This document shows, piece by piece, positions 24,987 to 48,636 of a DNA stretch of 48,636 nucleotides (position 1 is the stretch's first letter; the number at the start of each line of letters is the position of its first letter). Under the pieces are notes generated by a model. It was not told where the DNA came from and ran no database searches. It saw nothing but the letters and a program-made list of their open reading frames with translations. The translations under genes and the position numbers were made by a program. Source of the stretch: Arthrobacter sp. Edens01 (GTDB taxonomy: Bacteria > Actinomycetota > Actinomycetes > Actinomycetales > Micrococcaceae); the NCBI RefSeq assembly GCF_001307035.1, contig NZ_LKIU01000001.1, forward strand, positions 1 to 48,636, read 5' to 3'.

Positions 24987-25056
24987 GTTCACGATCTTTC
25001 CAGCTTGACGGTCCGGCTGGCGCCAGAGTGCGGGGCCGCGCATCCGTAACAAGAAA

Positions 25057-25087: not shown

Positions 25088-25153
25088 ATCTGGTTTCATA
25101 GCTTTACTACCTGACGCGCTTCGGCGCTTCCAGCTGAAGTGAAAGGAACCACC

Positions 25154-26218: not shown

Positions 26219-26293
26219 CACCTTTATCCCACCCGGCCAGCCACCACCGGCCCTGCACCACCCGCTCCGCACCCCACTATGAAAGGTTCACCC

Positions 26294-27493: not shown

Positions 27494-27511
27494 TTCCAGC
27501 CCGTACTGACC

Positions 27512-27550
27512 GCCGGTGGGCGGCGGAGAGAACTGCCGCCGCCCACCGGC
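27512..27550 (+). other. 15-bp intercistronic hairpin after the binding-protein gene
   Basis: GCCGGTGGGCGGCGG (27512-27526) is perfectly complementary to CCGCCGCCCACCGGC (27536-27550). It lies in the middle of the operon, 18 bases after the lipoprotein stop and 89 before the permease start. Such hairpins often protect the 3' end of binding-protein mRNA or cause partial termination, giving more binding protein than permease. Confidence 0.65.
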
Positions 27551-27638
27551 TTCCAACCTCCCAGCCGCGCACTGCGGCACCACGTCCCACAGGCCCGGCC
27601 CAAGAGGAGAATCGGCGGAGATCCGCCGGAAAAGCGCC

Positions 27639-28556: not shown

Positions 28557-28565
28557 GAGAGACCC

Positions 28566-29369
28566 ATGAGGCTATCGGCTTCTGCCAAAATCACCCTTCG
28601 GGTCTTCGCCGGCCTGGTTATGGCCGCGATTTACCTGCCCCTGCTGCTGGTCATCGCGAACTCGTTCAACGCCACCACATCGGGTGCGTTCCCGATTCAG
28701 GAATTCACCACCCGCTGGTGGGTCGCCGCCTGGCACAACGAGGGCGTGCGGGAGGCCCTGTGGACCTCGCTCAAGGTTGCGTCCGTCGCTACCGTGATCG
28801 CCCTGCTGCTGGGCTCAATGGTGGCCTTTGCCCTGTCCCGGTACGACTTCTTCGGCAAGAACACCATCAACCTGCTGGTGGTGCTGCCCATCGCGCTGCC
28901 CGGCATCGTCACCGGCGTCGCCCTGAACAACACGTTCAAGACCGTGCTGGAACCGCTGGGGATCGGCCTGGGGCTGTTCTCCGTGATTGTTGGCCATGCG
29001 ACGTTCTGCATCGTGATGGTCTTCAACAACGTCCAGGCACGGCTGGGCCGGATGAACCGCGGGCTGGAGGAAGCGGCCATGGACATGGGCGCCAACGTGG
29101 TGAAGACCTTCTTCCAGGTCACGTTCCCCGGGTTCCGCTCGGCGTTCGTTGCGGGCGGGCTGCTCGCCTTTGCGCTGAGCTTCGATGAGGTGGTGGTCAC
29201 CACCTTCACCGCCCCGCCCGGCACCGAAACGCTCCCGATCTGGATCTTCAACAACATGGCCCGCCCCAACCAGGCGCCCGTGGTGAACGTCATTGCCGCC
29301 GTGCTGATCGTGGCGTCGATGATCCCGGTCTACCTGTCCCAGCGGCTCACCGGGGATGACAAGAAGTAA
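28566..29369 (+). CDS. potC: ABC transporter permease, PotC type
   Basis: 267 residues, six hydrophobic segments. The docking loop is EEAAMDMGANVVKTFFQVTFPGFRSAFVAGGLLAF. SFDEVVVTTFTAPPGTETLPIWIFNNM is diagnostic for PotC-like subunits. AGGAGAG lies 6 bases before ATG 28566. This is the last gene of the ABC operon; its stop is 4 bases from the stop of a convergent small gene. Confidence 0.93.
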   Translation: MRLSASAKITLRVFAGLVMAAIYLPLLLVIANSFNATTSGAFPIQEFTTRWWVAAWHNEGVREALWTSLKVASVATVIALLLGSMVAFALSRYDFFGKNTINLLVVLPIALPGIVTGVALNNTFKTVLEPLGIGLGLFSVIVGHATFCIVMVFNNVQARLGRMNRGLEEAAMDMGANVVKTFFQVTFPGFRSAFVAGGLLAFALSFDEVVVTTFTAPPGTETLPIWIFNNMARPNQAPVVNVIAAVLIVASMIPVYLSQRLTGDDKK

Positions 29370-33503: not shown

Positions 33504-35168
33504 ATGCTTGCAGACCTGTTGATTACCAATGCCCATGTGCTCACCCAGGATCCCGCACATCCGCGGGCCGGCACCCTGGTAATTCACGGCGGCAGGATCC
33601 TGGCTGTGGATCCGGACATCGACATCCCCGCCCGCACGGTGTTCGACGCCGCGGGGCTGACGGTGGTGCCCGGCTTCAACGATGTGCACAGCCACAGTGT
33701 GTGGTTCGGCCTTGGCCTGATGGAAGCAGCGCTGGGGGATGCCCGTTCGCTGGAGGACGTATATGCCGCAATTGGTGCTGCGGCCGCAGAGCTTGCACCC
33801 GATGACTGGGTGGTTGCCTCGGGTTTCAGTCCCCTGCTGCTCGGCGGCGCCCAGCCGGACCGGGACCGGCTGGACGAGGCTTCGGGCGGCCGGCCGGTGT
33901 GGATCAAGCACTCCTCCGGCCACGCCTGCACCCTGAACAGCGCCGCACTGGACCTGGTAGCCGCGACGCAGGACCTCACCGCCGTGATTGACGGCGGCGT
34001 GGTGGTCCGCGGAGCCGACGGCCGGCCCACCGGCCTCCTCGAAGAAAACGCCATGCGGCTGATCCAGGAACTCATGCTGCCGTATCCGCTGGAGACCATA
34101 GAGAAAGCCCTGGAACTGGCAACGGCGCACTACCTCACCGAAGGCATCACGAGCGTCACCGACGCCGGAATTGCCGGCGGCTGGATTGGCCACTCCCCCC
34201 GGGAGTTCGGCGCCTACCAGTCCGCCCGGGACAAGGGCCTCCTCTCGGTGCGGATGCAGCCCATGCTGGTGCTTGATGCCCTTCGCCCGCTTTCCGGGCA
34301 CTCGGACGACGGCGGCGGCCTGGGGCTGGACGCCGGCATCCGTTCCGGGCTGGGCGATGAATGGCTCCGGATCGGTCCGGTGAAGATTTTCAGCGACGGG
34401 TCGCTGCTGGGCAGCACGGCATACATGTCCGAGGACTATGTGGGCTGCACGCATAACCACGGCTACCTGCAGATGGATGCCGGGGAGCTACGCGAGCAGG
34501 CCCTCGCGGCTTACCGCGCAGGGTGGCCGATTGCCATGCATGCCATTGGAGACGCCGCGGTGGAGCATGCCATCAGCATCATCACCGAGGCGCAGGAGAC
34601 TTACGGCCTGAACTGCTTCCCCAACCGCATCGAGCACGGCGGCGTGGTGCAGCCCGAGCAGCTGGACCGGATCGCGGAGGCGGGGATTGTCCTGGTCCCG
34701 CAGCCGCACTTCATCACCGAATTCGGCGACGGCATGGCGGAGTTGCTCGGCCCCGCCCGCACCGAACTCTCCTACTCGGCCGCCGGGCTGCTGCGCCGCG
34801 GCGCCGTCCTGCCGGGCAGCTCCGACCGTCCCGTCTCAAACGGGCGGCCGCTGGATGTGATGCAGTCCTTCGTCGAACGGCTAACCCCCTCCGGCAGGAC
34901 GTACGGTCCGGAAGAGCGGATCACCGCCGAGCAGGCACTGGCGGCCTACACCACCGGGTCCGCCGCAGCCACCGGCACCTCCGGTGAGAAGGGAAGCCTC
35001 TCCCCCGGCCTCCTCGCGGACCTGGTTTTCCTGGACCAGGATCCAACCACGGTTCACCCCTCCCGGATCGGCGCCACGCAGGTCCTGGGCACCATGGTGG
35101 GCGGCGAGCTCCGCTACGCGCACCCAGACTTCCCCTCCTTTCCCAACACAGCAGAGGACTCCCGATGA
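33504..35168 (+). CDS. Amidohydrolase, YtcJ-like
   Basis: 554 residues of the metal-dependent amidohydrolase superfamily. GLTVVPGFNDVHSHSVW carries the first metal pair H62 and H64; MHAIGDAAVEHA and RIEHGGVV give later metal histidines; GSSDRPVSNGRPLDVMQ holds the conserved late aspartate. YtcJ-like enzymes hydrolyse C-N bonds of cyclic amides or N-acyl compounds, but few have known substrates. The C-terminal DLVFLDQDP strand completes the composite beta domain. ATG 33504 begins with the typical ADLLITNAHVLTQD. It overlaps the next gene by four bases. Confidence 0.88.
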   Translation: MLADLLITNAHVLTQDPAHPRAGTLVIHGGRILAVDPDIDIPARTVFDAAGLTVVPGFNDVHSHSVWFGLGLMEAALGDARSLEDVYAAIGAAAAELAPDDWVVASGFSPLLLGGAQPDRDRLDEASGGRPVWIKHSSGHACTLNSAALDLVAATQDLTAVIDGGVVVRGADGRPTGLLEENAMRLIQELMLPYPLETIEKALELATAHYLTEGITSVTDAGIAGGWIGHSPREFGAYQSARDKGLLSVRMQPMLVLDALRPLSGHSDDGGGLGLDAGIRSGLGDEWLRIGPVKIFSDGSLLGSTAYMSEDYVGCTHNHGYLQMDAGELREQALAAYRAGWPIAMHAIGDAAVEHAISIITEAQETYGLNCFPNRIEHGGVVQPEQLDRIAEAGIVLVPQPHFITEFGDGMAELLGPARTELSYSAAGLLRRGAVLPGSSDRPVSNGRPLDVMQSFVERLTPSGRTYGPEERITAEQALAAYTTGSAAATGTSGEKGSLSPGLLADLVFLDQDPTTVHPSRIGATQVLGTMVGGELRYAHPDFPSFPNTAEDSR

Positions 35169-36412
35169 GCACCAGCAACTCCAGTTTCCTGTCGGACTTC
35201 GCCGTCATGTCCAGCTTCGGCGCCACGGAGGGCGGCGGTGTTGACCGCCAGGCAGGAACAGCCGAAGACCACGCCACCCGCGCCTGGTTCAGCACCTGGC
35301 TGGCGGACCACGGGCTCACCGAGGCCGTGGACCCGGCGGGCAACCAGTTCGGGCTGGCCGAGCTCGTTCCCGGCGCCCCCTGGGTCCTGCTCGGCTCGCA
35401 CCTGGACTCGCAGCCGCTGGCTGGACGGTACGACGGCGCCTACGGAGTTCTGGCAGCCGCCCATGCAGTGGTCCGTGCAGCTGCCGCTGCGGAAGCAGGC
35501 GAGCTGGTCCCCGCCTTCAACCTGGCCGTGGTGAACTGGTTCAACGAGGAAGGCAGCCGCTTCACCCCCAGCATGATGGGCAGCGGTGTCTTTACCGGCA
35601 AGCTGCCCCTCGAAACGGCTCACGCCACCTCTGACCTGGCCGGCACCACCGTGGCCCAGGCGCTGGGCAGCCCGTCCGCGCCGGGCACTGCCCCAACCTT
35701 GGACTCGGTTGCCCGCTACGCGGAAATCCATATTGAACAGGGCCGGATCCTGGAGGAGACCGGGACCCAGGTAGGCATTGTGGACAAGACCTGGGCGGCC
35801 GCGAAGTACCGGGTCACGGTTGACGGAGACCAGTCCCACACCGGGTCCACGCGGATGGTTGACCGTCGGGATGCCCTCTATGGATCAGCGCTGGTCATCG
35901 CCGCTGCCCGGGACCTCACCGATGAATTCGAACCAGGCCTGCTGCACAGCTCGGTCTCCCAGCTGCAGGTGCTGCCCAACTCTCCGGTGACGATCGCCCG
36001 CCAGGTGGTCATGAACCTGGACCTTCGCTCACCTGATGAATCCGTCCTGTCCCGCGCGATGGACCTGCTGGACAAGCGGATTGCCGACGCCGAAGCCCGG
36101 TCCCGCACGGAGATCTCCCTGGCGCTCACGCACCAGTGGGGACTGAACCCGTACCAGCCCGCCGGCGTCCAGCTGGGCCGGGCCGCGGCAGCTGCGCTTG
36201 GTTTCAGCCACAGGGACATCATGACCGTGGCAGGGCATGACTCCACCAACCTCAAGGACCATGTGCCCACCGTGATGCTGTTTGTACCCAGCGTGGAGGG
36301 CATCTCGCACAACGAAGCTGAATTCACCCGTGATGAAGACGCCGTTCGCGGCGTCGAACTCCTTGCCGAGGTGGCGCGGCGGCTGGTGCGCGGAGATTCG
36401 GTGGAGGACTAG
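35165..36412 (+). CDS. M20 family amidase/N-carbamoyl-amino-acid hydrolase-like
   Basis: 415 residues. Zn-site motifs: LLGSHLDSQPLAGRYDGAYG, VVNWFNEEGSRF, EIHIEQGRILEE and the late GISHNEAEF. This set is typical of the hydantoinase/carbamoylase branch of M20 (AllC, UraA and L-carbamoylase relatives) rather than of peptidases. The gene starts inside the stop of the amidohydrolase gene (ATGA), so the two act in one pathway: ring or amide opening followed by removal of a carbamoyl or acyl group. The substrate is unknown. Confidence 0.88.
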   Translation: MSTSNSSFLSDFAVMSSFGATEGGGVDRQAGTAEDHATRAWFSTWLADHGLTEAVDPAGNQFGLAELVPGAPWVLLGSHLDSQPLAGRYDGAYGVLAAAHAVVRAAAAAEAGELVPAFNLAVVNWFNEEGSRFTPSMMGSGVFTGKLPLETAHATSDLAGTTVAQALGSPSAPGTAPTLDSVARYAEIHIEQGRILEETGTQVGIVDKTWAAAKYRVTVDGDQSHTGSTRMVDRRDALYGSALVIAAARDLTDEFEPGLLHSSVSQLQVLPNSPVTIARQVVMNLDLRSPDESVLSRAMDLLDKRIADAEARSRTEISLALTHQWGLNPYQPAGVQLGRAAAAALGFSHRDIMTVAGHDSTNLKDHVPTVMLFVPSVEGISHNEAEFTRDEDAVRGVELLAEVARRLVRGDSVED

Positions 36413-36493: not shown

Positions 36494-38203
36494 ATGAGCG
36501 ATCCGCACCAGCCCGCCTGGTGGACCAGCGCCGTCGTCTATCAGATCTATCCGCGCAGTTTCGCGGACGGCAACGGGGACGGAATTGGGGACCTGCGCGG
36601 AATCCTCGCCCACGTGGACTACCTGCAGGACCTGGGGGTCGACGTCGTCTGGTTGTCCCCGGTGCACGAGTCACCGCAGCGGGACAACGGGTACGACATC
36701 TCCAACTACCGCCGGATCGACCGGTTGTTCGGCACCGAAGAGGACTTCGACGAGCTGCTGGGACAGCTTCATGTGCGGGGCATGAAGCTGGTGATGGATC
36801 TGGTGGTCAACCACACCTCCAGCGAGCACCCTGTGTTCAAGGAGGCCCGGAAGTCACGGGAGAATCCGTACCGTGACTATTTCTGGTGGCGGGATGCGCG
36901 GCCGGGCTTTGAACCCGGGGAGCCCGGCGCGGAGCCGAACAACTGGGGCTCGCACTTCGGAGGTCCGGCGTGGACCTTCGAACCCGAAACCGGGCAGTAC
37001 TACCTGCACCTGTTCACGCCGCATCAGCCGGACCTGAACTGGGAAAACCCCAAGGTCCGGCATGACGTTTATGAGACGATGCGCTGGTGGCTGGACCGCG
37101 GCGTGGACGGTTTCCGGATGGACGTCATCAACTTCATCTCCAAGGACCTCGCCCTTCCTGACGGCTTGGTGGGAGCGGGCAGTGTCTGGGGTGACGGTTC
37201 CCCGCACTTCACCAACGGCCCGCGGATCCACGAGTTCCTGCAGGAGATGCGCCGGGAGGTGTTCTCAGGGCGCGACGGGGACTTTCTCACCGTCGGTGAA
37301 ACACCCGGGGCCACGGTGGACCAGGCACTGCTCTATACCGACCCGTACCGGGGAGAACTGGACATGGTGTTCCAGTTTGAGCATGTGAGCCTGGACCAGA
37401 TCGGCGGGCGGAAGTGGGATTACCGGCCGCTCAGTCTGCCGGACCTGAAGACTTCGTGGAACCGGTGGCAGCGCGGACTCGCGGACCGCGGCTGGAACAG
37501 CCTCTACCTGAGCAACCATGACCAGCCGCGTCATCTGTCCCGGTTCGGGAAGGATGACGAATTCCGCTACGAATCAGCCACGCTCTGGGCCACGCTGCTG
37601 CATCTGCAGCGCGGCACTCCGTATGTGTACCAGGGTGAAGAAATCGGGATGACCAATGCCGGCTTCACCTCGATTGACCAGTACCGCGATGTTGAGTCAC
37701 TGAACTTCTACGCGGAGTCCACGGCGCAGGGCATGCCCGCCGAAGAGGCCCTCGAAGCACTGCGTGCCATGAGCCGGGACAATCCCCGCACCCCGATGCA
37801 GTGGACTGCGGGCCCGAACGCGGGCTTCACTGAGGGCCGGCCCTGGATCGACGTCAACCCGAACCACGTGCGCATCAATGCCGATACCGACCGTTCCGCG
37901 GAGAAATCGGTCTTCCGGTATTACCAGGACCTCATCCGGCTGCGGCACACCCACGATGTGGTTGTTCTTGGCGACTTCCACTTGGAAGCGCCTGAACACC
38001 CTCACCTGTTCGCCTACCGGCGCCGGCTGGACGAGGCAGAATGGCTCATCCTCGCGAACGTCTCGGATCAGGAGCTGGAACTGCCCGCTGTTTTGGCGGA
38101 GGAGGGTGCTCTGGTCCTGGGTAACTATGCCGAGCCCGGCGAGGCTGGAAGACTGCGCCCTTGGGAGGCTCGTGTGGTGCACGTTGCCGGGGCCGGAACG
38201 TAA
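36494..38203 (+). CDS. GH13 alpha-glucosidase (oligo-1,6-glucosidase type)
   Basis: 569 residues. The (beta/alpha)8 barrel starts VYQIYPRSFADGNGDGIGDLRG. Catalytic residues: nucleophile D210 (GFRMDVI), acid/base E269 (VGETPG) and transition-state aspartate D343 (SNHDQPR). The QPDLNWENPKV region matches the GH13 subfamilies acting on short alpha-glucosides such as isomaltose, sucrose or trehalulose. No signal peptide, so it is intracellular and needs imported sugar, but no sugar transporter gene is adjacent. GAGAGGAAG lies 7-12 bases before ATG 36494. A weak -10-like TAGACT stands at about 36459. Confidence 0.93.
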   Translation: MSDPHQPAWWTSAVVYQIYPRSFADGNGDGIGDLRGILAHVDYLQDLGVDVVWLSPVHESPQRDNGYDISNYRRIDRLFGTEEDFDELLGQLHVRGMKLVMDLVVNHTSSEHPVFKEARKSRENPYRDYFWWRDARPGFEPGEPGAEPNNWGSHFGGPAWTFEPETGQYYLHLFTPHQPDLNWENPKVRHDVYETMRWWLDRGVDGFRMDVINFISKDLALPDGLVGAGSVWGDGSPHFTNGPRIHEFLQEMRREVFSGRDGDFLTVGETPGATVDQALLYTDPYRGELDMVFQFEHVSLDQIGGRKWDYRPLSLPDLKTSWNRWQRGLADRGWNSLYLSNHDQPRHLSRFGKDDEFRYESATLWATLLHLQRGTPYVYQGEEIGMTNAGFTSIDQYRDVESLNFYAESTAQGMPAEEALEALRAMSRDNPRTPMQWTAGPNAGFTEGRPWIDVNPNHVRINADTDRSAEKSVFRYYQDLIRLRHTHDVVVLGDFHLEAPEHPHLFAYRRRLDEAEWLILANVSDQELELPAVLAEEGALVLGNYAEPGEAGRLRPWEARVVHVAGAGT

Positions 38204-38237
38204 CTTTCGAGGAGCCTCTGCTTGCAGCACAAATTTC

Positions 38238-38252
38238 GTTGACGAATTCAAC
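38238..38252. promoter_or_regulatory. Inverted repeat in the leader of the PhnD-P450 operon
   Basis: GTTGA-cgaat-TCAAC is an inverted repeat in an AT-rich patch of the 215-base gap before the PhnD-like gene. It overlaps a TTGACG that could be a -35 box, though no good -10 is seen 16-18 bases further. It is a candidate operator for the PaaX-family regulator encoded in the operon. Confidence 0.35.
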
Positions 38253-38418
38253 AATTGGTGATTCAGTGTGATCTACGCCATATCCTGATCCGTATTCACT
38301 TCGGCTCAATAGGCCACAGTTCATGTGACTTTCGACCCCGTAAGTGTTGCTCAAGGTCCCGGGGATTGGGCAATGGCGGCCATGCACCGTTCCGGCAACC
38401 AGAGGATCAGAGTCGATC

Positions 38419-39411
38419 ATGCACAAGAGCTTCAAGACCGTCACCGCGCTGGCCGCTGCCAGTCTCCTTCTCACCGCCTGCGGCGCCAGCCCCAATGCCC
38501 GCCCTGCGTCGACAGGCGGTTCGAGCGATGCACCGCAGTCGCTGGTTTTTGCCGTTGTGCCCACTGACAACAGCAAGGAACTCGAGGAAAGCTTCAAGCC
38601 CATCGTGGCCGCAATCGAAAAGGAAACGGGCCTCCCCACCACGATTGAGGCAGTCAGCAGCAACGCGGGCGTAATCGAAGCGCAGGCAGCCGAGCGCGTT
38701 GATGTGGCAACCTACGGCGCGTTCTCCTATTACCTTGCCCAGAACGTCGCGGACGTCACCCCGATTGCAATGGACCAGCGGACCCCTGCCGCCGGCTCCG
38801 GTGCAGTCCAGTCGCTGGGGGTGGTGGCCGCAGGTGCGGATATCAAAGAACTGGCGGACGTGGAAGGCAAGGATGTCTGCTTCACGGATCCCGCTTCAAG
38901 CACCGGATATCTGGCCGCGGCAGCTGGTTTGATTGCGATCGGCCTCGATCCCAAGAACGACATCAATCCGATTTTCGCGGGTTCGCATGATGTAGCTGTC
39001 ACCCAGATGCTGGCCGGCGACTGCGACGTCGCGTTCGTGGCCGGAACCTTCATTACCGATCTGCTCCCGGCACGCGGGGTCATCAAGGACGGCGATGTGG
39101 ACACCATCTGGACCTCCCCGGATATTCCAGGCACCCCGATGGTGATTGGAAACTGGCTGCCGGAGGATCTTCGCACCCAGATCACTGATGCCGTGCTCAA
39201 ATACAACGCTGTGACCGCAGCTGAAGCGGGCCTCTGCCCGGAAAACCAGCGTGAGTCACTCGCCCCGTGGGGCAACGAATATGCAGGCAAGATGGCCTGC
39301 CAGTGGGGCGGGACCGGAGCCTTCGCATTTGAACCGGCCACTGAGGAGGACTTTGCATCGATCCGCGAGATCTGCGAGACCACGCAGGCCGAAGTATGCC
39401 GGAACGAGTAA
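38419..39411 (+). CDS. phnD: PhnD-like substrate-binding lipoprotein
   Basis: 330 residues. Lipoprotein signal with lipobox LTAC at residues 19-22. The mature protein has the PhnD/PtxB phosphonate-phosphite fold pattern: LVFAVVPTDNSKELEESFKPIVAAIEKETG, the segment CFTDPASSTGYLAAA that matches the oxyanion-binding S-T/S-S-G loop region of PhnD, and SHDVAVTQMLAGDCDVAF. The family binds phosphonates, phosphite or, in divergent members, other anions. Six mature cysteines (VCF, GDC, LCP, ACQ, ICE, EVC) suggest three disulphides, which is unusual. The ATG at 38419 matches the signal peptide. Neighbours are the matching ATPase and permease and then a P450, not phosphonate-degrading enzymes, so the real ligand is uncertain. 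Confidence 0.88.
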   Translation: MHKSFKTVTALAAASLLLTACGASPNARPASTGGSSDAPQSLVFAVVPTDNSKELEESFKPIVAAIEKETGLPTTIEAVSSNAGVIEAQAAERVDVATYGAFSYYLAQNVADVTPIAMDQRTPAAGSGAVQSLGVVAAGADIKELADVEGKDVCFTDPASSTGYLAAAAGLIAIGLDPKNDINPIFAGSHDVAVTQMLAGDCDVAFVAGTFITDLLPARGVIKDGDVDTIWTSPDIPGTPMVIGNWLPEDLRTQITDAVLKYNAVTAAEAGLCPENQRESLAPWGNEYAGKMACQWGGTGAFAFEPATEEDFASIREICETTQAEVCRNE

Positions 39412-39427
39412 TTCCCAGGAGCACCGA

Positions 39428-40270
39428 ATGACCATCCCCGAACGCCTAAAAGACTCAGGACCCCATCCTTTGGCTCATCAGTCCACCGCTGGCGGCGTCA
39501 GTGCCGCCAGCACGCAACCCAGCCTCGTCCTGCGGGATCTTGGCATCAGCTTCGGCTCGAAAGAGGTCCTCCGGGATGTGAACCTTCAGGTGCAGCCGGG
39601 ACAATTTGTGGCCCTGGTCGGCCCGTCCGGTGCCGGCAAATCGACGCTGCTGCGCCTGATCAACGGCAGCCACCGCCCCACCACCGGGACGGTTTCGGTT
39701 CTGGGTGTGAACCCGGGAACCTGCGGACGAAGGAGCCTGCAAAAACTGCGCACCCGCGTGGGATTCGTATTTCAGCAGTTCGGGCTGGTCGGACGGCTCA
39801 GCGCGATGGAAAACGTACTCATGGGGACGCTGGGGTCGCTCAGGATGCCGCGCTACGGGATTTCCACCTACCCCAGGCAACTGCGGGAAAAAGCCGTGGC
39901 GAATTTGGAGCGGGTAGGGCTGGTCGATCAGCGGTTCCAGCGTTGTGACACTCTGTCCGGCGGCCAGCAGCAGCGCGTCGCGATCGCAAGGACCCTGATG
40001 CAGGACGCCGAGATTGTCCTGGCCGACGAGCCCGTCGCGTCGCTGGATCCCAGCGCGAGCATGTCCGTACTGAACACCCTGAAGAGACTAAGTGCGGAGG
40101 ACGGATTCACGGTGGTCTGTTCCCTGCACCAGGTTGACCTGGCCCTGCAGGTCTCCGACAGGGTGGTGGCGGTGCGGAACGGCTCGCTCATCCTCGACAC
40201 ACGGACGTCAGATACCTCGGAGGAGGCGCTCCGGGCCATCTACGAAAAGGCGAAGGGCGCCCGCCCATGA
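39428..40270 (+). CDS. phnC: PhnC-like ABC ATPase
   Basis: 280 residues. Walker A GPSGAGKST (65-73), signature TLSGGQQQRVAIARTL, Walker B IVLADEPVASLDP and H-loop CSLHQVDLAL are intact. The domain is of PhnC type (phosphonate/phosphite importers). The first 30 residues are extra and poorly ordered. AGGAG is 6 bases before ATG 39428. The stop overlaps the start of the permease gene (ATGA). Confidence 0.92.
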   Translation: MTIPERLKDSGPHPLAHQSTAGGVSAASTQPSLVLRDLGISFGSKEVLRDVNLQVQPGQFVALVGPSGAGKSTLLRLINGSHRPTTGTVSVLGVNPGTCGRRSLQKLRTRVGFVFQQFGLVGRLSAMENVLMGTLGSLRMPRYGISTYPRQLREKAVANLERVGLVDQRFQRCDTLSGGQQQRVAIARTLMQDAEIVLADEPVASLDPSASMSVLNTLKRLSAEDGFTVVCSLHQVDLALQVSDRVVAVRNGSLILDTRTSDTSEEALRAIYEKAKGARP

Positions 40271-41964
40271 GCGGCACAATGAAGGAAACTGCCGCGGACA
40301 CCCGGCCAGACGGCGTCGGCACGAAACGCCGGCGTTCCAACAGCGGGCAGCTGCCGCCAGGGGCCACGCAGGCAGTACCCAAACGCCCTCGTGTTTCCGC
40401 GGCAACCCTGGGCATTCCGCTTGCCTACCTGGCCGTAACCGTCTTCGGTGTCTGGTGGATTGACATTCGTCCGGCCGCCGTCGCGGCCGGTTTCGGAGAC
40501 ATTGCCCGGCTGCTGGAGCGGATGGTTCCGCCCACCACGGGGCCGTTTCCCGATCTGCTGGCCCTGACCCTGGAAACTCTGTGGATCGCGGTTGCGGGTA
40601 CCGGTTTGGCGACCATTGCGTCGGTGTTCCTCGCCGCAGCGGCATCCCGTCACTTCACCGGCCCCCGGGTGGTCCGGTGGCTTGCCCAGGGCATCATCAT
40701 CGTGACACGGGCCGTCCCGTCGCTGATCTTCGCCATCCTTTTCGTGCGTATTTTCGGCCTTGGCCCTCTTGCCGGCGGACTCGCAATCGCCTTCCACTCG
40801 ATCGGCATGGTCGGAAAGATGATGGCGGACGTATTCGAGGAGCAGGCACCCTCCCCGCGCGAAGCGATTGCCTCGGTCGGAGCGAACCGGCTGCAAAATT
40901 TCGTGTCCACTACCCTGACTCGTGCCCTTCCGGCGGTCACGTCACTGGTGATCTACCGGCTGGATATCAATGTCCGTGCCTCTGCCATCCTCGGGCTGGT
41001 GGGCGCGGGAGGTATTGGTGTTGCCCTGCAGACTGCAATCGGCTCACTCAACTACCGCCGTGCCGCGGGCATCATCCTGGTGATCGTCTGCCTGCTCCTC
41101 ATCCTGGAGCTCGTGGCTTATCTGGTGCAGCGGGCGGTCGCCGAACACGCCGATGAACATACCCAATCCCAACTCCATGTTGCCGGCGCGGCCCAGGCTG
41201 ATCCCGGCTGGAACCGGTCCAGGGTGCTGCGTACCGCTGCTGCTGTTTCGGCACTGATGCTGTTCCTCTTTTCACTGAGCCAGCTTTCCCTCAACCCGGC
41301 CCGTCTCGGCCAGGCCTGGGATAACGCGGCGGCACTCCTCTCGGGATTCGTGCCGCCGGTGTTTACGGAACAGATCCTGCTCGGGATATTCGAAAGCGTC
41401 ATCATGGCCTTTACGGCGACCTTCTTCGGGGTTCTTCTGGGTCTGATCATCGCTGTACTCTCCACCCGCCATCTCATCCGTTTCGAGCCGCTCTCCCTCA
41501 CACTGCGCGCGGTGGTGGTCTTTATGCGCGGCATCCCGGACATCGTCTACGCGCTGATTTTTGTTGCCGCACTGGGGCTGGGACCGTTTGCAGGTTTTTT
41601 GGCGTTGTCCATTTCGTGCACTGCCCTGGCCTCCAAATTCTTTACGGACTCCCTCCAGAACGTGGACCCCGCTCCACTCCGGGCCCTGGAGGCCACCGGA
41701 GCCGGCCGCGTTCAGGTCTTCGTCAGCGGCGTCTGGCCCCAGTTTGTGCCGAGCTTCATCGGCAACAGCCTGTTCACCTCGGACCTGGCGCTGCGGGAAT
41801 CAGCAGTGCTGGGCATCGTGGGAGCCGGCGGGATCGGATTCCTGCTGGACGAATCAGTGGCAACACTCAACTACCAGCAGACGGCAGGCATCCTGATCGG
41901 CCTGATCGTTGTGGTCGTGGCGCTAGAATCCGTGGCCCGCTGGGCCCGCAGAAAGGTTATCTGA
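40267..41964 (+). CDS. phnE: Fused double PhnE-type permease
   Basis: 565 residues, twice the usual PhnE. Two homologous permease domains are joined: about 45-285 (SLIFAILFVRIFGLGPLAGGLAIAFHSIGMVGKMMADVFEE..., EAIASVGANRLQNF) and about 315-560 (DIVYALIFVAALGLGPFAGFLALSISCTALASKFFTDSLQ, RALEATGAGRVQVF). Each half keeps its own EAA docking loop and the motif GAGGIG. The single chain replaces the heterodimer PhnE1-PhnE2. A linker of about 30 residues lies between. The N terminus has about 35 polar residues. ATG 40267 overlaps the phnC stop; the stop is one base before the P450 start, which makes translation coupling very likely. Confidence 0.92.
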   Translation: MSGTMKETAADTRPDGVGTKRRRSNSGQLPPGATQAVPKRPRVSAATLGIPLAYLAVTVFGVWWIDIRPAAVAAGFGDIARLLERMVPPTTGPFPDLLALTLETLWIAVAGTGLATIASVFLAAAASRHFTGPRVVRWLAQGIIIVTRAVPSLIFAILFVRIFGLGPLAGGLAIAFHSIGMVGKMMADVFEEQAPSPREAIASVGANRLQNFVSTTLTRALPAVTSLVIYRLDINVRASAILGLVGAGGIGVALQTAIGSLNYRRAAGIILVIVCLLLILELVAYLVQRAVAEHADEHTQSQLHVAGAAQADPGWNRSRVLRTAAAVSALMLFLFSLSQLSLNPARLGQAWDNAAALLSGFVPPVFTEQILLGIFESVIMAFTATFFGVLLGLIIAVLSTRHLIRFEPLSLTLRAVVVFMRGIPDIVYALIFVAALGLGPFAGFLALSISCTALASKFFTDSLQNVDPAPLRALEATGAGRVQVFVSGVWPQFVPSFIGNSLFTSDLALRESAVLGIVGAGGIGFLLDESVATLNYQQTAGILIGLIVVVVALESVARWARRKVI

Positions 41965-41965
41965 A

Positions 41966-43264
41966 ATGGGCCAGTGCCCCTATGGCTTTGCTTCTTCCGA
42001 CGAGAACCCCGGGCTCGAAAGCGCGGTGGATGGCCCCCGGCCCTCCGAGTGGTCTCCCGCGCTCAATGAGACCTTCGGGAGCGCCCACCGGGACTACGCC
42101 GAACTGCGGCGCACCAACCCCTTTCCCTGGAGCGAAGACTTCGGTGGTTTTTGGGCTGCAACAAGCTACGAGGACATAGTCCGCATTACTCAGGATGACG
42201 AGCTTTTTATCACCTCGGTCCAGAACGTTGTGCCCCACGTGCCCCGCTCCTCGCGCCGCCCTCCGCTGCATTTTGATCCGCCGGAGCACACGGCCTACCG
42301 TGAGGCCATCGATCCCGTGCTGCGCCGCTCGACTGTCCGCGCGCATGAGTCAGCCTTCCGCGAGAGTGCCGGGGAACTGGTACAGGGGCTGCTGGCCAAG
42401 AACGACGACGCCGACGGCGTGCGCGATTTCGCCGCCCCCTTTGTCATGGACTGCTTCGCTTCCTTCCTGGGCGTCCCATCCTCGCTGACCCGGCATATCA
42501 GGGAGATCGGCGTGCGCTATTCCTTTGCCATCCAGGACATGGATGAGGATGTCATTGGCGAATGCAGCGCAGAGCTCTACCGGATAGCCGAAGAGGTCTA
42601 CCGGGAACGCCTGGCTGCCGGCGCCGATTCAGCGCAGGACCTCGTCTCCAGCCTGCATGAGGCCGCACTCAACCCGGAGAACCACATCACCGAGAAAACC
42701 GCGATTGCCACTATTCGGCAAATGATCGTGGCAGGGATGGGCGCTCCACAGGCGGTCCTTGGCAGCTGTCTGGTGCATCTGGCCCAGGATCAGGACCTGC
42801 AGCAGCACCTGCGTTCGAATCCCGAGAACCTTCCGGCCGCCATCGAAGAGTTCCTGCGGCTGCACGCGCCGTACCGGGTTTTCGCGCGGACAGCGAAACA
42901 GGACGCCCTCGTGCACGGACGCATGGTTCGGGAGGGAGATCCGATTGCCCTGATATTCCCTTCGGGCAACAGGGATGAAACGGTGTTTCCCGATCCGGAC
43001 GAGTTCGTGCTGCGCAGGCCCAACAACTCTCACCTTGCCTTCGGCAGGGGGTCCCACAAGTGCCCGGCGGCCACGTTGGGGAGGATGGAGCTGCTCATAG
43101 CCCTCGAAGTGCTGCTGGAGAACACCGACCGCTTTGATCTCGCCGGCGACGTCGTGATGATGAACTGGCTCGAATATGGTCCGCGCGCCGTCCCGCTTCG
43201 CCTGATCGGGAAGACAGCAGCAGGTGCGGCCCGTGTGCCCAAACCGCGCACTGTCAGCCAATGA
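41966..43264 (+). CDS. Cytochrome P450 with non-canonical I-helix
   Basis: 432 residues. The class signature is present: ExxR (EEFLRL) and the heme loop AFGRGSHKCPAATLGR with thiolate C366. Two positions are odd. In the I-helix the usual A/G-G-x-D/E-T-T is AGMGAP (256-261), without the acid-alcohol pair used for dioxygen activation. After the cysteine, the usual C-x-G is C-P-A. It has PPEHTAYREAIDPVLRR, the substrate-adjacent loop of bacterial P450s. A soluble enzyme; ferredoxin and reductase must come from elsewhere, as none is adjacent. The start is one base after the permease stop. The substrate is probably what the transporter imports. Confidence 0.93.
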   Translation: MGQCPYGFASSDENPGLESAVDGPRPSEWSPALNETFGSAHRDYAELRRTNPFPWSEDFGGFWAATSYEDIVRITQDDELFITSVQNVVPHVPRSSRRPPLHFDPPEHTAYREAIDPVLRRSTVRAHESAFRESAGELVQGLLAKNDDADGVRDFAAPFVMDCFASFLGVPSSLTRHIREIGVRYSFAIQDMDEDVIGECSAELYRIAEEVYRERLAAGADSAQDLVSSLHEAALNPENHITEKTAIATIRQMIVAGMGAPQAVLGSCLVHLAQDQDLQQHLRSNPENLPAAIEEFLRLHAPYRVFARTAKQDALVHGRMVREGDPIALIFPSGNRDETVFPDPDEFVLRRPNNSHLAFGRGSHKCPAATLGRMELLIALEVLLENTDRFDLAGDVVMMNWLEYGPRAVPLRLIGKTAAGAARVPKPRTVSQ

Positions 43265-43276
43265 CAGAATCGACCC

Positions 43277-44236
43277 ATGCCTACGCCAACCCTGCCGCGG
43301 TTCCAGAACGGCGCACGTCCCCAGCAGTTGTTGACAGTTCTGCTGGGCGACTACTGGCATGCACGGAGCGAACCCATCCCCTCTGCCGCACTGGTGGATT
43401 TGCTCCAGGTCTTCGAGGTGACTCCCAGCGGGGCGCGCGCCGCGATTCAAAGACTGGCACAGCGGGGCTTCCTGGTCGGCACAAAGGCCGGCCGGCAAAC
43501 TGCCTACGCGGTGTCCCCGATGAGCCGGGAGCGCATCAACACGCACGTCCGTTCGCTGTTTATGAGCCACCTCCAGCAGGTTTGGGACGGGTCCTGGACC
43601 CTGGTGGGATATTCCCTCCCGGAGAACGCGAAGGGGACGCGGAGGATTCTGCGCGATCAGCTCCGGCAGCTGGGATTCGGGAATCTGTACGATGCTCTCT
43701 GGGTGCGGCCGGGCAACCATTTGGGCTCGGTGAGCAGCTTGAAGACGAGCATGGACGGACTCCTGGGCCCAGACCAGTTAACCGTGTTCACGGATGCCCG
43801 GCTGCCGGCGGCGGCGGGCCTGGAGGCAGTCCAGTCCGCTTTCGATTTACAGGCCCTGGCAACGGGCTATTCGGAGTTCATCGATCGGTGGGAACCAGCG
43901 GCCTCTGCCCTCAAGCACGGAACGGACAGCGTCGTGAGCGCTGCGCCCGGCACCGGGCTCCGCCCGGGGGACGCAGTCCTCCAGCTTCGAACGTCGATTA
44001 TGGCTGAATGGCGCACCCTGCGGCGGCAGGATCCCTGTCTCCCCCATGAGCTGCTCGGCCCGGACTTTCCCATGCACCGCGCAGTGGCGGTTTGCTCGGC
44101 CCTCTATGACAGCCTGGGCCCGGCAGCCGAATCAGGATTCCGCAGGATCCTGCGTGCGCATGAGGAGTCATTGGCCGACTTGGCCACGCACCACACCTTC
44201 GCGGCATCGGCTTCGCTGCTTCGGTCCAAGGACTGA
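43277..44236 (+). CDS. PaaX family transcriptional regulator
   Basis: 319 residues. The N-terminal winged helix is LLTVLLGDYWHARSEPIPSAALVDLLQVFEVTPSGARAAIQRLAQRGFLV; the following WDGSWTLVGYSLPENAKGTRRILRDQLRQLGFGNLYDALWVRP is the PaaX diagnostic stretch. PaaX proteins are repressors that respond to aryl-CoA thioesters, most famously phenylacetyl-CoA, in aromatic catabolism. It lies 12 bases downstream of the P450, so the P450 product or its CoA ester may be the inducer. It probably represses the promoter before the PhnD-like gene. ATG 43277 is the only convincing start. Confidence 0.88.
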   Translation: MPTPTLPRFQNGARPQQLLTVLLGDYWHARSEPIPSAALVDLLQVFEVTPSGARAAIQRLAQRGFLVGTKAGRQTAYAVSPMSRERINTHVRSLFMSHLQQVWDGSWTLVGYSLPENAKGTRRILRDQLRQLGFGNLYDALWVRPGNHLGSVSSLKTSMDGLLGPDQLTVFTDARLPAAAGLEAVQSAFDLQALATGYSEFIDRWEPAASALKHGTDSVVSAAPGTGLRPGDAVLQLRTSIMAEWRTLRRQDPCLPHELLGPDFPMHRAVAVCSALYDSLGPAAESGFRRILRAHEESLADLATHHTFAASASLLRSKD

Positions 44237-44312
44237 CCGGTGGCCGTGCCCCTCCAGTTCCACGCCATGCACCTCCGTTAGGCGCAAGGGTGCGCCGCGG
44301 GAAGGATTTTCC

Positions 44313-45749
44313 ATGCCATACATCAGTTCATCATTGAGAATCGCAACCCAAGCCCGGCTGGCCGCTTTGTCCGCCGCCGTTGTCGCCGCCTGTTTCACGG
44401 TGTCACCATTAACGGTTTCCCCGGCCAATGCTGCTCCTGTTTCAGAGAGTCCGGCGGCCGCGGTGCTCGACCAACCGCTTACGGAGCTGCGGGGAACCCT
44501 GCCCGGTGGAGGACAATACGTCCTGCACGAACCCACACGCTGGAATGGAACGGTGCTGGTGTGGAATCCGGGGTACGGCGGCTCGCCGGAAGCCGCTGCG
44601 GCGCCTAGTTCCACGCTCCGCAGCTGGCTGCTGTCGAAGGGATACGCACTCGCCGGGAGCACGGCGGCGGCGGCGGGAGGATGGGGAGTCGAAGGGCTGA
44701 TCGCCAACCAGCCCGCCCTCCTTGAGGTGGTCAGGTCTGAGCTCGGCGAACCCAGCTCAGTGGTCGCCTGGGGCTCCTCCATGGGCGGGCTGACCGCAGT
44801 CGCGAACATGGAGGCTCACCCCCGGCTGTTCGACGCCGCCCTGCCACTGTGCGGATCCGTGGCCGGTGCCGTTCCCATGTTGAACGGGAGCCTGGACGGA
44901 GCTTTCGTGCTGAAGATGCTCCTGGCACCCGGTGACGAGCGCCTGGAACTGGTCAATATCCAGGACGAACCAACCCGCCAGGCGGCCTTCCGCGAAGTGC
45001 TGGATGAGGCACAGGCAACGCCGGCCGGGCGGGCACGAATTGCCTTGGCCGCAACCATTGCCCAGCTTCCAGTCTGGACCCAGCAGAATGCGCCGGAGCC
45101 TTCACCGCGTGACTATGCGGCCCAGCAGGAACAGCTGTACGCAGCCTTCATGTTCGGAGTGATCTCGCCGCGGCAGCCGCTGGAAGAGCGCGCCGGTGGA
45201 AACTTCTCCTGGAACACGGGAGTCGATTATGCCCGCTCGCTGACTCAATCCGGTCAGGAAAAAATGGTCCGTTCCCTCTACGCGGAGGCAGGGATTTCTC
45301 TGGAGGATGACCTCAGGACAGTCAACTCCGCAGAGCGGATTACGGGCAATCCTGCTGCCGTTGCCTACATGCAGGCCTACGCCACGCCCCTTGGCGATAT
45401 CGACGGACCTGTACTTTCTCTCCACGAGACCGGCGACACCGCGCCAACAGTGTCGCAGGCCGGGACATATGCCGAGCGGGTGCGTCGAAACGGGGACAAC
45501 GCACTCCTCCGGCAGGCTTTCGTAGACAGGCCGGGGCATTGCAATTTCGCGGATGCGGAAATCGCCGCGATGGTAACCAGCCTTCAGCAGCGGCTGGACT
45601 CCGGGCGATGGTCCAATCTGGCGCACCCTGCCGCGCTCAACCGTCTGGCTGACCGGATTTCGGAGGAAGACAACCTCGGCAGAGGGGGCTCCTTCTCTGC
45701 ATTCCAGCCGCCACGAATGCTGCGTCCGGAGCGTACGGAAGCCAACTAA
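44313..45749 (+). CDS. Secreted alpha/beta hydrolase
   Basis: 478 residues. An N-terminal signal peptide ends at about residue 40 (SPANA before APVSES), with a basic start and a hydrophobic core. The nucleophile elbow is WGSSMGG (Ser about 156), and a late RPGHCNF (His about 409) fits the catalytic histidine. The region between carries a helical cap. No lipobox or anchor is present, so it is released. The family is unnamed; tannase-, feruloyl-esterase- or polyester-esterase-like activity is possible. GGAAGGA precedes ATG 44313 by about 6 bases. It lies 76 bases after the PaaX gene, in the same direction. Confidence 0.8.
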   Translation: MPYISSSLRIATQARLAALSAAVVAACFTVSPLTVSPANAAPVSESPAAAVLDQPLTELRGTLPGGGQYVLHEPTRWNGTVLVWNPGYGGSPEAAAAPSSTLRSWLLSKGYALAGSTAAAAGGWGVEGLIANQPALLEVVRSELGEPSSVVAWGSSMGGLTAVANMEAHPRLFDAALPLCGSVAGAVPMLNGSLDGAFVLKMLLAPGDERLELVNIQDEPTRQAAFREVLDEAQATPAGRARIALAATIAQLPVWTQQNAPEPSPRDYAAQQEQLYAAFMFGVISPRQPLEERAGGNFSWNTGVDYARSLTQSGQEKMVRSLYAEAGISLEDDLRTVNSAERITGNPAAVAYMQAYATPLGDIDGPVLSLHETGDTAPTVSQAGTYAERVRRNGDNALLRQAFVDRPGHCNFADAEIAAMVTSLQQRLDSGRWSNLAHPAALNRLADRISEEDNLGRGGSFSAFQPPRMLRPERTEAN

Positions 45750-45843
45750 GAGCCGCGGAGGAGCCAACCGGGTCCTGGACGTTTCCGCCACGGAGAGCTG
45801 GGTTGGCTAGGCTCGTACAAAACCCGCAGTGAAAAGAAGCAGC

Positions 45844-46677
45844 ATGCCGATCTCCACCGCCCCCGCCATCACCCTCCGTAACGGACTTGAGCTGCCCGCC
45901 CTGGGAATGGGCACCTGGCCGCTCGATGACTCGCAGGCGGCCGACGCCGTCGCCACAGCTGTAGAGGTTGGATACCGCCTGTTCGACACCGCTGAGAACT
46001 ACGGCAACGAAACCGGTGTAGGAGAAGGCATCCGCCGCAGCGGCATTGCCCGCAGCGAGGTGGTCATCACCACCAAGTTCAACAAGCAGTGGCACTCACG
46101 GGAGGGAGTCCGGAAAGCCTTTTCCGCGTCGGCCCAGCGGCTGGGTACCGAGTACATCGACCTGTTCCTGGTGCACTGGCCCAACCCCGGCCAGGACCAG
46201 TTCGTTGAAGCCGTCCAGGGCATCGCGGACCTTCTTGAAGAAGGCATGGTGCGCGGCGTCGGGGTCTCCAACTTCAAGCCGGAGCATCTGCAGCGCCTCG
46301 CCGAAGCGGGCCTGGTTCCGGACCTGAACCAGATCCAGGTGGATCCCCGGCATATCCGTGAAGCTTCCCGGCAGGCCAACAACCGGCTGGGCATCGTCAC
46401 GGAATCGTGGAGTCCCCTGGGACGCGGTGAAGGGCTGCTCCATGATCCTTCCGTCACAGACCTGGCCCGGAAGTATGGGAAGAATCCCGCACAGATCGTG
46501 CTGCGCTGGCATGTCCAGCAGGGGCTGGTGCCGATCCCGAAGGCGTCTTCCCGCGCACATCTGGAGGAGAACCTGGCCGTCTTCGACTTCGTGCTGGAGG
46601 ATTCGGAGATCGCCGCGCTGTCCGCGCTGGACACCGGTGAAGCCGGAATCCTGGATTCGAACGCCTTCGGACACTAG
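45844..46677 (+). CDS. Aldo/keto reductase
   Basis: 277 residues. Typical AKR elements: LPALGMGTWPL, the catalytic FDTAENYGNE (Asp, Tyr), VVITTKFNKQW (Lys), LVHWPNPGQ (His), then GVSNFKPEHL and the NADPH-binding IPKASSRAHLEEN. It reduces aldehydes or ketones, substrate unknown. ATG 45844 is preferred to GTG 45829. Upstream, AGCCAACC (45762-45769) and GGTTGGCT (45801-45808) form an inverted repeat with a 31-base spacer, followed by a -10-like TAGGCT, which may be the promoter. Confidence 0.92.
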   Translation: MPISTAPAITLRNGLELPALGMGTWPLDDSQAADAVATAVEVGYRLFDTAENYGNETGVGEGIRRSGIARSEVVITTKFNKQWHSREGVRKAFSASAQRLGTEYIDLFLVHWPNPGQDQFVEAVQGIADLLEEGMVRGVGVSNFKPEHLQRLAEAGLVPDLNQIQVDPRHIREASRQANNRLGIVTESWSPLGRGEGLLHDPSVTDLARKYGKNPAQIVLRWHVQQGLVPIPKASSRAHLEENLAVFDFVLEDSEIAALSALDTGEAGILDSNAFGH

Positions 46678-46729
46678 GTCGGCCTGCGGCCCGCTTTCCA
46701 CCTACCGGGCACACTGCTAGCGTCAGGGC

Positions 46730-47179
46730 ATGTCTCGACGCCCCCTTATGCGAACCCTCACCCAGCCCGCAGCGAAGTCCACCCGCCCGCGCCGCGTGGC
46801 CGCCGTCGTGCTGGGCGTGTTCCTGGTGTTTGCCGGAACCAGCCATCTCACCTTTGCCCGGGACGAGTTCCAGGCACAGGTCCCCGGCTGGGTTCCGCTG
46901 GACAAGGACCTGGTGGTGCTGCTTTCAGGCGTCGCAGAGATCGGTCTTGGCGCTGCGCTGGCCGCGCTGCCCTGCCGCCGGATACCCGTGGGTCTGGCTG
47001 CGGCGGCCTTCTTCATCGCGATTTTCCCGGGCAACATCTCGCAATACGTAACGCAGACCGACGGCTTCGGCCTGGACACTGACCAGAAGCGTTTCATCCG
47101 GCCGTTCTTCCAGCCCCTGCTGGTCATCTGGGCCCTCTGGTCCACCGGCGCGTGGCAGGCGCTGCGGAGCCGCCGCTAA
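46730..47179 (+). CDS. DoxX-like integral membrane protein
   Basis: 149 residues with four hydrophobic segments (about 22-37, 62-80, 84-101, 125-143). Pattern GVFLVFAGTSHLTFARDEFQAQVPGW ... GVAEIGLG ... AAFFIAIFPGNISQY matches DoxX-like proteins of actinobacteria. Their function is not settled; some are linked to oxidative stress. The start may be ATG 46730 or ATG 46748. CAGGG upstream of 46730 is weak. A three-unit tandem repeat starts in the stop codon. Confidence 0.82.
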   Translation: MSRRPLMRTLTQPAAKSTRPRRVAAVVLGVFLVFAGTSHLTFARDEFQAQVPGWVPLDKDLVVLLSGVAEIGLGAALAALPCRRIPVGLAAAAFFIAIFPGNISQYVTQTDGFGLDTDQKRFIRPFFQPLLVIWALWSTGAWQALRSRR

Positions 47180-48050: not shown

Positions 48051-48636
48051 TTAGTGCCTGCTGCCGCGGCGGCGGTTAGCTGCTGCTACCCCGATACCGC
48101 CCATGGCGACCAGTCCTGCACCCAGTGCCAGGAACCCGCCTGCCATTTCGGCGCCTGTGGAAGGAAGGCGCTTCTTGGCTGGCTGGTACGGGGCCGGAGT
48201 CGGCCGAGGGGTCGGTCCGGCCGTGGCGGTGTAGGTGTTCACCACCCGCAGCTCGGACGCGGCTGCAGCTGTGATGACCACCGGGTCAGGAAGCGTCGTG
48301 CTGACTTCCAGCCCGGTGGTTGCACCGGTGGCTGTCTCCGTAACCGCGCACTCGGATCCCTGGACGAGGCCGCCGTAGGTGTTCATGACTTCGCCTGTGG
48401 CACCGGCCTGGATCGTCACGGTCTCATCCAGCACGGTTTCACCATCCACAGTGCAGACCACATTCAGGACGACCTCACCCTGTTGCCCCGCAGCCGCCCC
48501 TGCAATCTCCTTGGTGACCACCAACGTGCCCGGGTTGAAGGTGTAGGTGTTCGTCACGATGGCCTCGCTGACCGTGGCAGCCGCAATGGTCACCGGATCA
48601 GGGAGAACGGTGGTGACACCCACCGTCTCGGTTGCG
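48051..48636 (-). CDS. LPXTG-anchored repeat surface protein (5' part outside the window)
   Basis: The visible 195 residues are the C-terminal end; the frame stays open to the right edge, so the gene is partial. From left in protein order: the end of one repeat (LPDPVTIAAATVSEAIVTNTYTFNPG), a full repeat of about 90 residues (LVVTKEIAGAAAGQQGEVVLNVVCTVDG...VTETATG...LPDPVVITAAAASELRVVNTYT), a proline-rich linker, and the sorting signal LPSTG-AEM followed by a membrane helix and a basic tail (RRRGSRH). Sortase should attach it to peptidoglycan. The repeats resemble DUF5979-type surface repeats of actinobacteria. Adhesin or pilus-like function is inference. Confidence 0.88.
   Translation of the reverse strand, partial: ATETVGVTTVLPDPVTIAAATVSEAIVTNTYTFNPGTLVVTKEIAGAAAGQQGEVVLNVVCTVDGETVLDETVTIQAGATGEVMNTYGGLVQGSECAVTETATGATTGLEVSTTLPDPVVITAAAASELRVVNTYTATAGPTPRPTPAPYQPAKKRLPSTGAEMAGGFLALGAGLVAMGGIGVAAANRRRGSRH

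Follow-up and report, generated by a model that had tools for sequence, protein, structure and literature searches.

Why should the genes of a phosphonate-type importer stand in one row with those of a cytochrome P450 (P450), a PaaX-like regulator and a secreted hydrolase? This arrangement occurs in a stretch of 48,636 nucleotides of Arthrobacter sp. Edens01 (contig NZ_LKIU01000001.1, positions 1 to 48,636, forward strand; hereafter the window), whose genome comprises 3.64 Mb in 10 contigs. The six genes, referred to below as the module, are as follows (window coordinates, strand, product, family model):

38419..39411, + strand: phnD, PhnD-type solute-binding lipoprotein with an altered pocket (TIGR01098, 179.9 bits, cut-off 112.05)
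39428..40270, + strand: phnC, PhnC-type ATP-binding cassette (ABC) ATPase (TIGR02315, 270.5 bits, cut-off 266.1)
40267..41964, + strand: phnE, PhnE-PhnE double permease, a single chain of 565 amino acids (TIGR01097, 434.7 bits, cut-off 216.7, in two stretches)
41966..43264, + strand: cytochrome P450 (PF00067, 71.9 bits)
43277..44236, + strand: PaaX-like transcriptional regulator (PF07848, PF20803 and PF08223, all above cut-off)
44313..45749, + strand: secreted alpha/beta hydrolase, probable esterase (PF00326, 28.2 bits)

From phnD to the hydrolase gene the intergenic distances are 16, -4, 1, 12 and 76 bases, and the layout given by a first-pass annotation of this DNA, six co-directional genes with these gaps, was confirmed from the coordinates. 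A scan of positions 38150-46800 identified one promoter-like site (1.1 in shuffled sequences) and 11 terminator-like sites (6.4 in shuffles, standard deviation 3.0); none of the latter was found in the gap 44236-44313 or just past 45749. Since all 11 lie inside genes and the gap holds none, a single transcript spanning the six genes would be compatible with the scan.

The analyses described below identify the module as a real, conserved and specialised unit. We consider it rather probable that it is a dedicated nutrient-scavenging system for the uptake and oxidation of an ester-derived organic acid, which is probably aromatic.

Conservation was examined by one scan of genome contigs with six short peptides of the P450, which yielded 41 loci; because of this design, the survey covers loci that keep at least one of the six peptides. 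Module presence was scored by tblastn instead of gene calls, because the crude gene caller preferred antisense frames to the P450 frame in about 10 loci. The P450 was at least 55% identical in 17 of the 41 loci, and all 17 carried the six genes within the fetched flanks. These loci belong to Arthrobacter, Microbacterium, Frigoribacterium, Nocardioides, Agromyces, Citricoccus and Thermocatellispora. The genes phnD-phnC-phnE-P450-paaX were co-directional in 16/17 loci, the sole exception being the Thermocatellispora locus L059, in which paaX is on the opposite strand; the hydrolase gene was located downstream on the same strand in seven loci and divergently upstream in ten. The 24 remaining loci (P450 identity 27-45%), several of which end at contig ends, gave no module-type PhnD by tblastn at 1e-10, and loci with a P450 below 46% were kept outside the module count.

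Among the genomes of the host's family, scored for the best four to six candidates per genome, P450 orthologs (70-100% identity) were found in 12 of 395, the next P450 showing 42%, and those of PhnD (60-100%) in 12 of 335, the next PhnD showing at most 37%. The 12 PhnD-bearing genomes are the 12 P450-bearing ones. The counts of 12 carriers and 17 loci overlap, since the PhnDs of five carriers are identical to those of five loci. For the six proteins from 18 loci, matrices of pairwise identity correlated with r of 0.71-0.93, which partly reflects species relatedness, and none of 2000 permutations gave values as high; for this purpose, over-long or stop-bearing frames (the hydrolase of L047, L048, L049 and L057, the P450 of L056) were shortened to 520 residues or ended at their stop.

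At the level of sequence, these comparisons demonstrate that the six genes have been passed on as a set in actinobacteria of different genera. Chance adjacency was rejected, since the arrangement recurs in every locus whose P450 reaches 55% identity and is accompanied by the same 12-genome distribution and by correlated divergence. The proposal of the first-pass annotation that importer, P450, regulator and hydrolase form one unit was borne out by the conserved order in other actinobacteria, and the situation named there as fatal to it, P450 and PaaX genes unlinked to the importer elsewhere, was looked for and did not occur (17/17 loci, the same 12 genomes).

The closest solved relatives of the module PhnD are PtxB, GpxB, PhnD and ArrX. 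Residue roles in pockets of the PhnD/PtxB type were taken from PMC5700983 and PMC12718374; these, PMC4424350, PMC9493321 and PMC10973024 were drawn upon in excerpt. The pocket was compared among 54 distinct PhnDs, 24 from modules and 30 ordinary actinobacterial ones, after six duplicate rows had been dropped. At position 82 all 24 module PhnDs have Asn vs Tyr in 29/30 ordinary ones, and at position 130 they have Val, Ile or Ala (V130 in the window), again vs Tyr in 29/30. Among the proteins compared the change is thus restricted to P450-linked PhnDs, save for one ordinary outlier with other residues at both positions. The oxyanion site S160, S/T161, T162 and H190 (Ser, Ser, Thr and His in the window) is kept in 24/24 module PhnDs, with Thr in place of the final Ser of the STS-H motif. 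The PhnD equivalog model TIGR03431 gave 155.2 bits, below its cut-off of 261.1. By alignment, the module PhnD clearly belongs to the PhnD/PtxB structural family, with both oxygen-binding tyrosines exchanged.

The E. coli PhnCDE system (PhnD structure 3P7I) resembles the module in gene kinds, fold and the Ser/Thr/His oxyanion site, but has both tyrosines, which are replaced in the module, and differs from it in PhnJ, which the module lacks, and in the P450 and PaaX genes of the module operon; the amine-binding pair Glu177/Asp205 of E. coli PhnD is T210 and T239 in the window. In PtxB of the phosphite importer PtxABC (5JVB/5LV1), Y55, Y100 and the capping Y208 correspond to N82, V130 and T239. 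The glycerol-1-phosphate binder GpxB (9LF9; PMC12718374, in excerpt) shares the Asn at the N82 position, the Thr at T239 and the lack of an aromatic cap, but keeps Y138 and Arg223 where the window PhnD has V130 and D214. ArrX, which has the same fold as PhnD, was crystallised with acetate and with malonate according to the structure titles, and this was counted in favour of an organic-acid ligand.

On these pocket residues a plain phosphite or 2-aminoethylphosphonate importer was rejected. The replacement of both oxygen-binding tyrosines of PhnD/PtxB speaks against the aryl phosphonate or phosphate proposed as ligand in the first-pass annotation, although the remaining oxyanion site would still permit one. 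The lack of a C-P lyase, also pointed out there, was corroborated: PhnJ was found in 0/12 carriers, with a positive E. coli control, in a search that did not extend to phosphonatase, phosphite dehydrogenase or other phosphonate enzymes.

The lipobox Cys (C21) of PhnD was invariant in 18/18 alignment rows. A Cys-rich C-terminal part was rejected as a hallmark of the module, because most ordinary actinobacterial PhnDs also have these Cys. On plasmids, the best PhnD relative found by tblastn was about 32% identical, in Pseudonocardia. The Pseudonocardia plasmid pLS2-1 (L010, 335521-339005) carries an ordinary PhnDCE set with Tyr at both pocket positions and transposase genes on either side.

The window P450 is closest to named Arthrobacter P450s (82-83% identity). 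Its I helix reads VAGMGAPQ at residues 255-262, Ala-Gly-Met-Gly-Ala-Pro standing where Ala-Gly-x-Asp/Glu-Thr-Thr is usual, and has no acid-threonine pair. In all 119 homologs compared (50-98% identity; the best 120 of 1,014, one short sequence dropped) the acid is replaced by Gly or Ala and the Thr by Ala, and the next residue is Pro in 118. Both acid and Thr are likewise absent from 24/24 locus P450s of at least 55% identity and from 36/36 at 38-55%; the standard pair is present in 14/25 below 38%. The ExxR motif (E295-R298) and the haem Cys (C366) are kept, and were invariant in the 20 rows of an alignment of the window, 15 of the 17 loci (L049 and L056 left out) and four distant sequences. 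The alignments place the module P450 firmly in a family that lacks the acid-threonine pair with which P450s usually activate oxygen. P450s of this sort may rely on substrate groups or peroxide. A link to estrogen hydroxylation through a Novosphingobium ES2-1 match was set aside, with no sequence to compare.

The regulator contains the N-terminal, middle and C-terminal PaaX domains, all three Pfam models scoring above cut-off, and gave 104.3 bits with the PaaX equivalog TIGR02277, below the cut-off of 264.55. It has the same domain architecture as PaaX of the paa regulon of E. coli and Pseudomonas, which acts with phenylacetyl-CoA (coenzyme A, CoA), but differs in falling below the equivalog cut-off, in its candidate DNA site and in the lack of paa enzymes in the module. 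Two features were identified upstream of phnD:

38238..38252, no strand: inverted repeat GTTGA-N5-TCAAC, candidate operator of the PaaX-like regulator (TTGA-N5-TCAA in 15/21 loci)
38308..38318, + strand: conserved box AATAGGCCACA between the dyad and phnD (ATAGGCCACA common to 11/21 upstream regions)

Of 21 loci, some of them close relatives, 15 have the TTGA-N5-TCAA dyad upstream of phnD; 200 shuffled sets gave 0.095 on average and never more than 1. When one mismatch was allowed, the count was 17/21, the shuffled sets averaging 2.0 and reaching at most 6. The host genome has eight exact GTTGA-N5-TCAAC sites, the control none. In L046 and L105, the stretch that separates phnD from a divergent acyl-CoA ligase gene contains two dyads; L047-L049 and L053 have the exact dyad beside the divergent hydrolase gene and a phnD-proximal one with a mismatch. 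The comparison with shuffled sets establishes a conserved dyad in the DNA upstream of the module, and we infer that the PaaX-like regulator binds it.

The hydrolase open frame begins at 44046; the start was put at 44313 because a signal-peptide-like stretch begins there, and, by eye, the N-terminus of the translation reads as a putative Sec signal peptide. S156, D375 and H409 were invariant in 26/26 rows, from which L047, L048, L049 and L057 were left out, their frames running on into the next gene. The predicted model (predicted local distance difference test score 87.9) showed an alpha/beta hydrolase fold with a Ser-Asp-His triad, S9 peptidases and esterases being tied in the fold search; a sequence search of the PDB gave no match. 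The protein is a probable secreted esterase. In L046/L107 and L105, a 650-residue protein with an unassigned N-terminal part and a flavin-reductase domain (residues 465-600) is encoded directly after the second hydrolase gene (L046 15198-17150, L105-L106, L107 3629-5581, partial in L098) and is a possible electron supplier.

Genes near the module in relatives bear on the link to aromatic catabolism that the first-pass annotation had drawn, and this link held in some of them. LigM, the vanillate/3-O-methylgallate demethylase, adjoins the module together with PurU within 10 kb in 4/17 loci, all Microbacterium (one by profile, three by tblastn; LigM of L047 873.7 bits, cut-off 580). It occurs in 12/12 carriers vs 79/383 other family genomes (Fisher test, 1.2e-8); in the window's genome it is unlinked to the module and located on another contig (G000:C5). 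An acyl-CoA ligase is encoded within 9 kb of the module in 5/17 loci and also near it in genome G085. In G085 and G136, catA (catechol 1,2-dioxygenase) and benA (benzoate dioxygenase large subunit) follow the second hydrolase gene at a distance of about 3-5 kb; BenA scored 853.2 bits in G085 (cut-off 780.95) and 576.8 in G136, where the contig end truncates it. An intradiol dioxygenase was present in 12/12 carriers.

P450 relatives of about 40-45% identity, in Actinomycetota and Pseudomonadota, repeatedly stood near two to four genes for a CapA-like protein (PF09587), a CoA-transferase III (PF02515) and two kinds of HGD-D (PF06050). This block was seen in L060, L062, L065, L073, L076, L079, L086, L008 and L109, and in part in L069, L070 and L075; in L060 (P450 70%) all four genes adjoin PhnDCE-P450-PaaX. 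CapA-like genes number 0-2 per genome (24 genomes). The module can do without this block, because the host genome has no HGD-D match. From its gene content the block looks like an undescribed aerobic CoA-ester pathway, and among the titles listed in a literature search on it none described it. In each of two genomes, two HGD-D genes and a CapA-like gene were also observed no more than about 8 kb from LigM (G102:C1:2797086-2805838, G119:C12:21182-30093). MmgE/PrpD-like genes lie in the same stretch as distant P450 relatives in L008, L009, L066, L067, L072, L074 and L109, accompanied in five of these seven by tannase-like genes.

From these residues and neighbours, the importer most probably takes up an aromatic carboxylate, perhaps a methoxylated one, rather than a simple phosphonate or phosphite. 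Outside the cell, the secreted hydrolase would cleave an ester and release an organic anion, which the lipoprotein PhnD would capture through the kept Ser/Thr-His oxyanion site; PhnC with the double PhnE would bring it into the cell, where the P450 may oxidise it by hydroxylation or O-dealkylation. An acyl-CoA ligase, encoded elsewhere or, in some relatives, near the module, would activate the product, and the PaaX-like repressor would release the dyad upon binding the resulting CoA ester. For comparison, PatE is the monoalkyl phthalate hydrolase of Rhodococcus jostii RHA1. The PatDABC-PatE system of that strain follows the same logic of ester hydrolase plus aromatic-acid ABC importer, a likeness drawn from description, and we know of no P450 or PaaX in it. 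Import of aromatic acid by PatDABC is described in the excerpt of PMC10973024, and recognition of phenylacetyl-CoA by PaaX in excerpted literature.

Several observations weigh against an aromatic acid as the substrate. No aromatic-catabolism gene adjoins the module in the window, and the neighbours scanned in genome G062 are allantoin genes, an allantoin-type permease and an allantoinase lying near its module copy. LigM adjacency is confined to the four Microbacterium loci, and in the host genus LigM is present in 5/5 carriers but also in 19 of the 29 genomes listed, so that ancestry explains part of the association. The dyad differs from the published E. coli PaaX site (TGATTC-N27-GAATCA, as given in the excerpted literature), and four of the 21 upstream regions have none even with one mismatch. 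Finally, the kept Ser-Ser/Thr-Thr and His motif leaves room for a phosphate or phosphonate head. This last point belongs to an explanation that we regard as unlikely, the scavenging of organophosphates or organophosphonates, in which the hydrolase would trim a larger ester, the importer would carry a phosphorus compound with a bulky tail, as GpxB does glycerol-1-phosphate, and the P450 would oxidise the tail. The solved relatives of PhnD are known for phosphorus or arsenic oxyanions, the oxyanion-site Ser/Thr and His are kept in every module PhnD, GpxB too has Asn at the N82 position, and T239 aligns with GpxB Thr247, which holds the glycerol hydroxyl. However, the Tyr that coordinates the head (GpxB Y138, PtxB Y100) is Val, Ile or Ala in 24/24, none of the 12 carriers has PhnJ, the regulator is of the PaaX kind, and no scanned neighbour in relatives was recognised as phosphorus-metabolic whereas several are aromatic-catabolic.

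A non-aromatic ester-derived acid, such as a terpenoid or lactone acid, or the detoxification of an antimicrobial, with PaaX sensing the CoA ester of that compound, appears quite unlikely. The hydrolase fold is generic, and the CoA-transferase III, 2-hydroxyacyl-CoA dehydratase-like, CapA-like and MmgE/PrpD-like genes near the more distant P450 relatives, in at least two phyla, are not aromatic-specific; PaaX, LigM, catA/benA and neighbours of the FAD-hydroxylase/FAH type lean towards aromatic compounds. An ordinary phosphite or phosphonate importer followed by coincidence by P450, PaaX and hydrolase genes would fit TIGR01098, TIGR02315 and TIGR01097, all scoring above cut-off, but is very improbable in view of the complete co-occurrence in 17 loci, the identical 12-genome distribution, the correlated divergence, the pocket change tied to P450-linked PhnDs (one outlier with other residues among the 54) and the missing capping Tyr of phosphite binders. 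Overall, the interpretation of the first-pass annotation stood as regards the conserved unit, the lack of PhnJ and the aromatic links in some relatives, and lost ground as regards the aryl phosphonate or phosphate ligand.

Aromatic-acid uptake and oxidation, the reading preferred here, can be extended, tentatively and at less than even odds, to a fuller account. A phosphonate-class binder would have been re-tooled, by the exchange of both tyrosines, for a carboxylate (an aromatic acid) released by the module's own esterase, and would feed a P450 whose family is undescribed and which activates oxygen in the absence of the acid-threonine pair; this P450 family may also be the shared component of a wider catabolic system, itself undescribed and present in at least two phyla, with CoA-transferase III and 2-hydroxyacyl-CoA dehydratase-like proteins. 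Literature searches aimed at the combination of importer, P450, PaaX and hydrolase gave no description by title or abstract start, most subscription journals being outside their reach; what they listed dealt, by title, with synthetic communities for pollutants and with technologies for xenobiotic degraders.

The module's neighbours in the window are alpha-glucosidase-like, allantoate-amidohydrolase-like and aldo-keto reductase genes. At 33504-36412, an amidohydrolase gene (PF07969) overlaps an allantoate-amidohydrolase/carbamoylase-like gene (TIGR01879, 258.8 bits, cut-off 204). A second complete ABC importer (TOBE_2 ATPase, binding protein, two permeases) occupies 25139-29369 and is adjoined by a GntR/FCD regulator gene at 24201-25052, and a repeat-bearing surface protein with a terminal LPSTG-type sorting signal is encoded at 48051-48635, open at the window edge.

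Importers of the PhnD type are, as a matter of routine, labelled transporters of phosphonate or phosphite. This label is probably wrong for the module PhnD clade, which would show part of that annotation to be in error, and the two-residue signature Asn82/Val130 would serve as a simple sequence test for misannotated PhnDs. The P450 family without the standard oxygen-activating residues (119/119 of the best homologs) is a defined target for enzymology and a route to what these soil bacteria eat.

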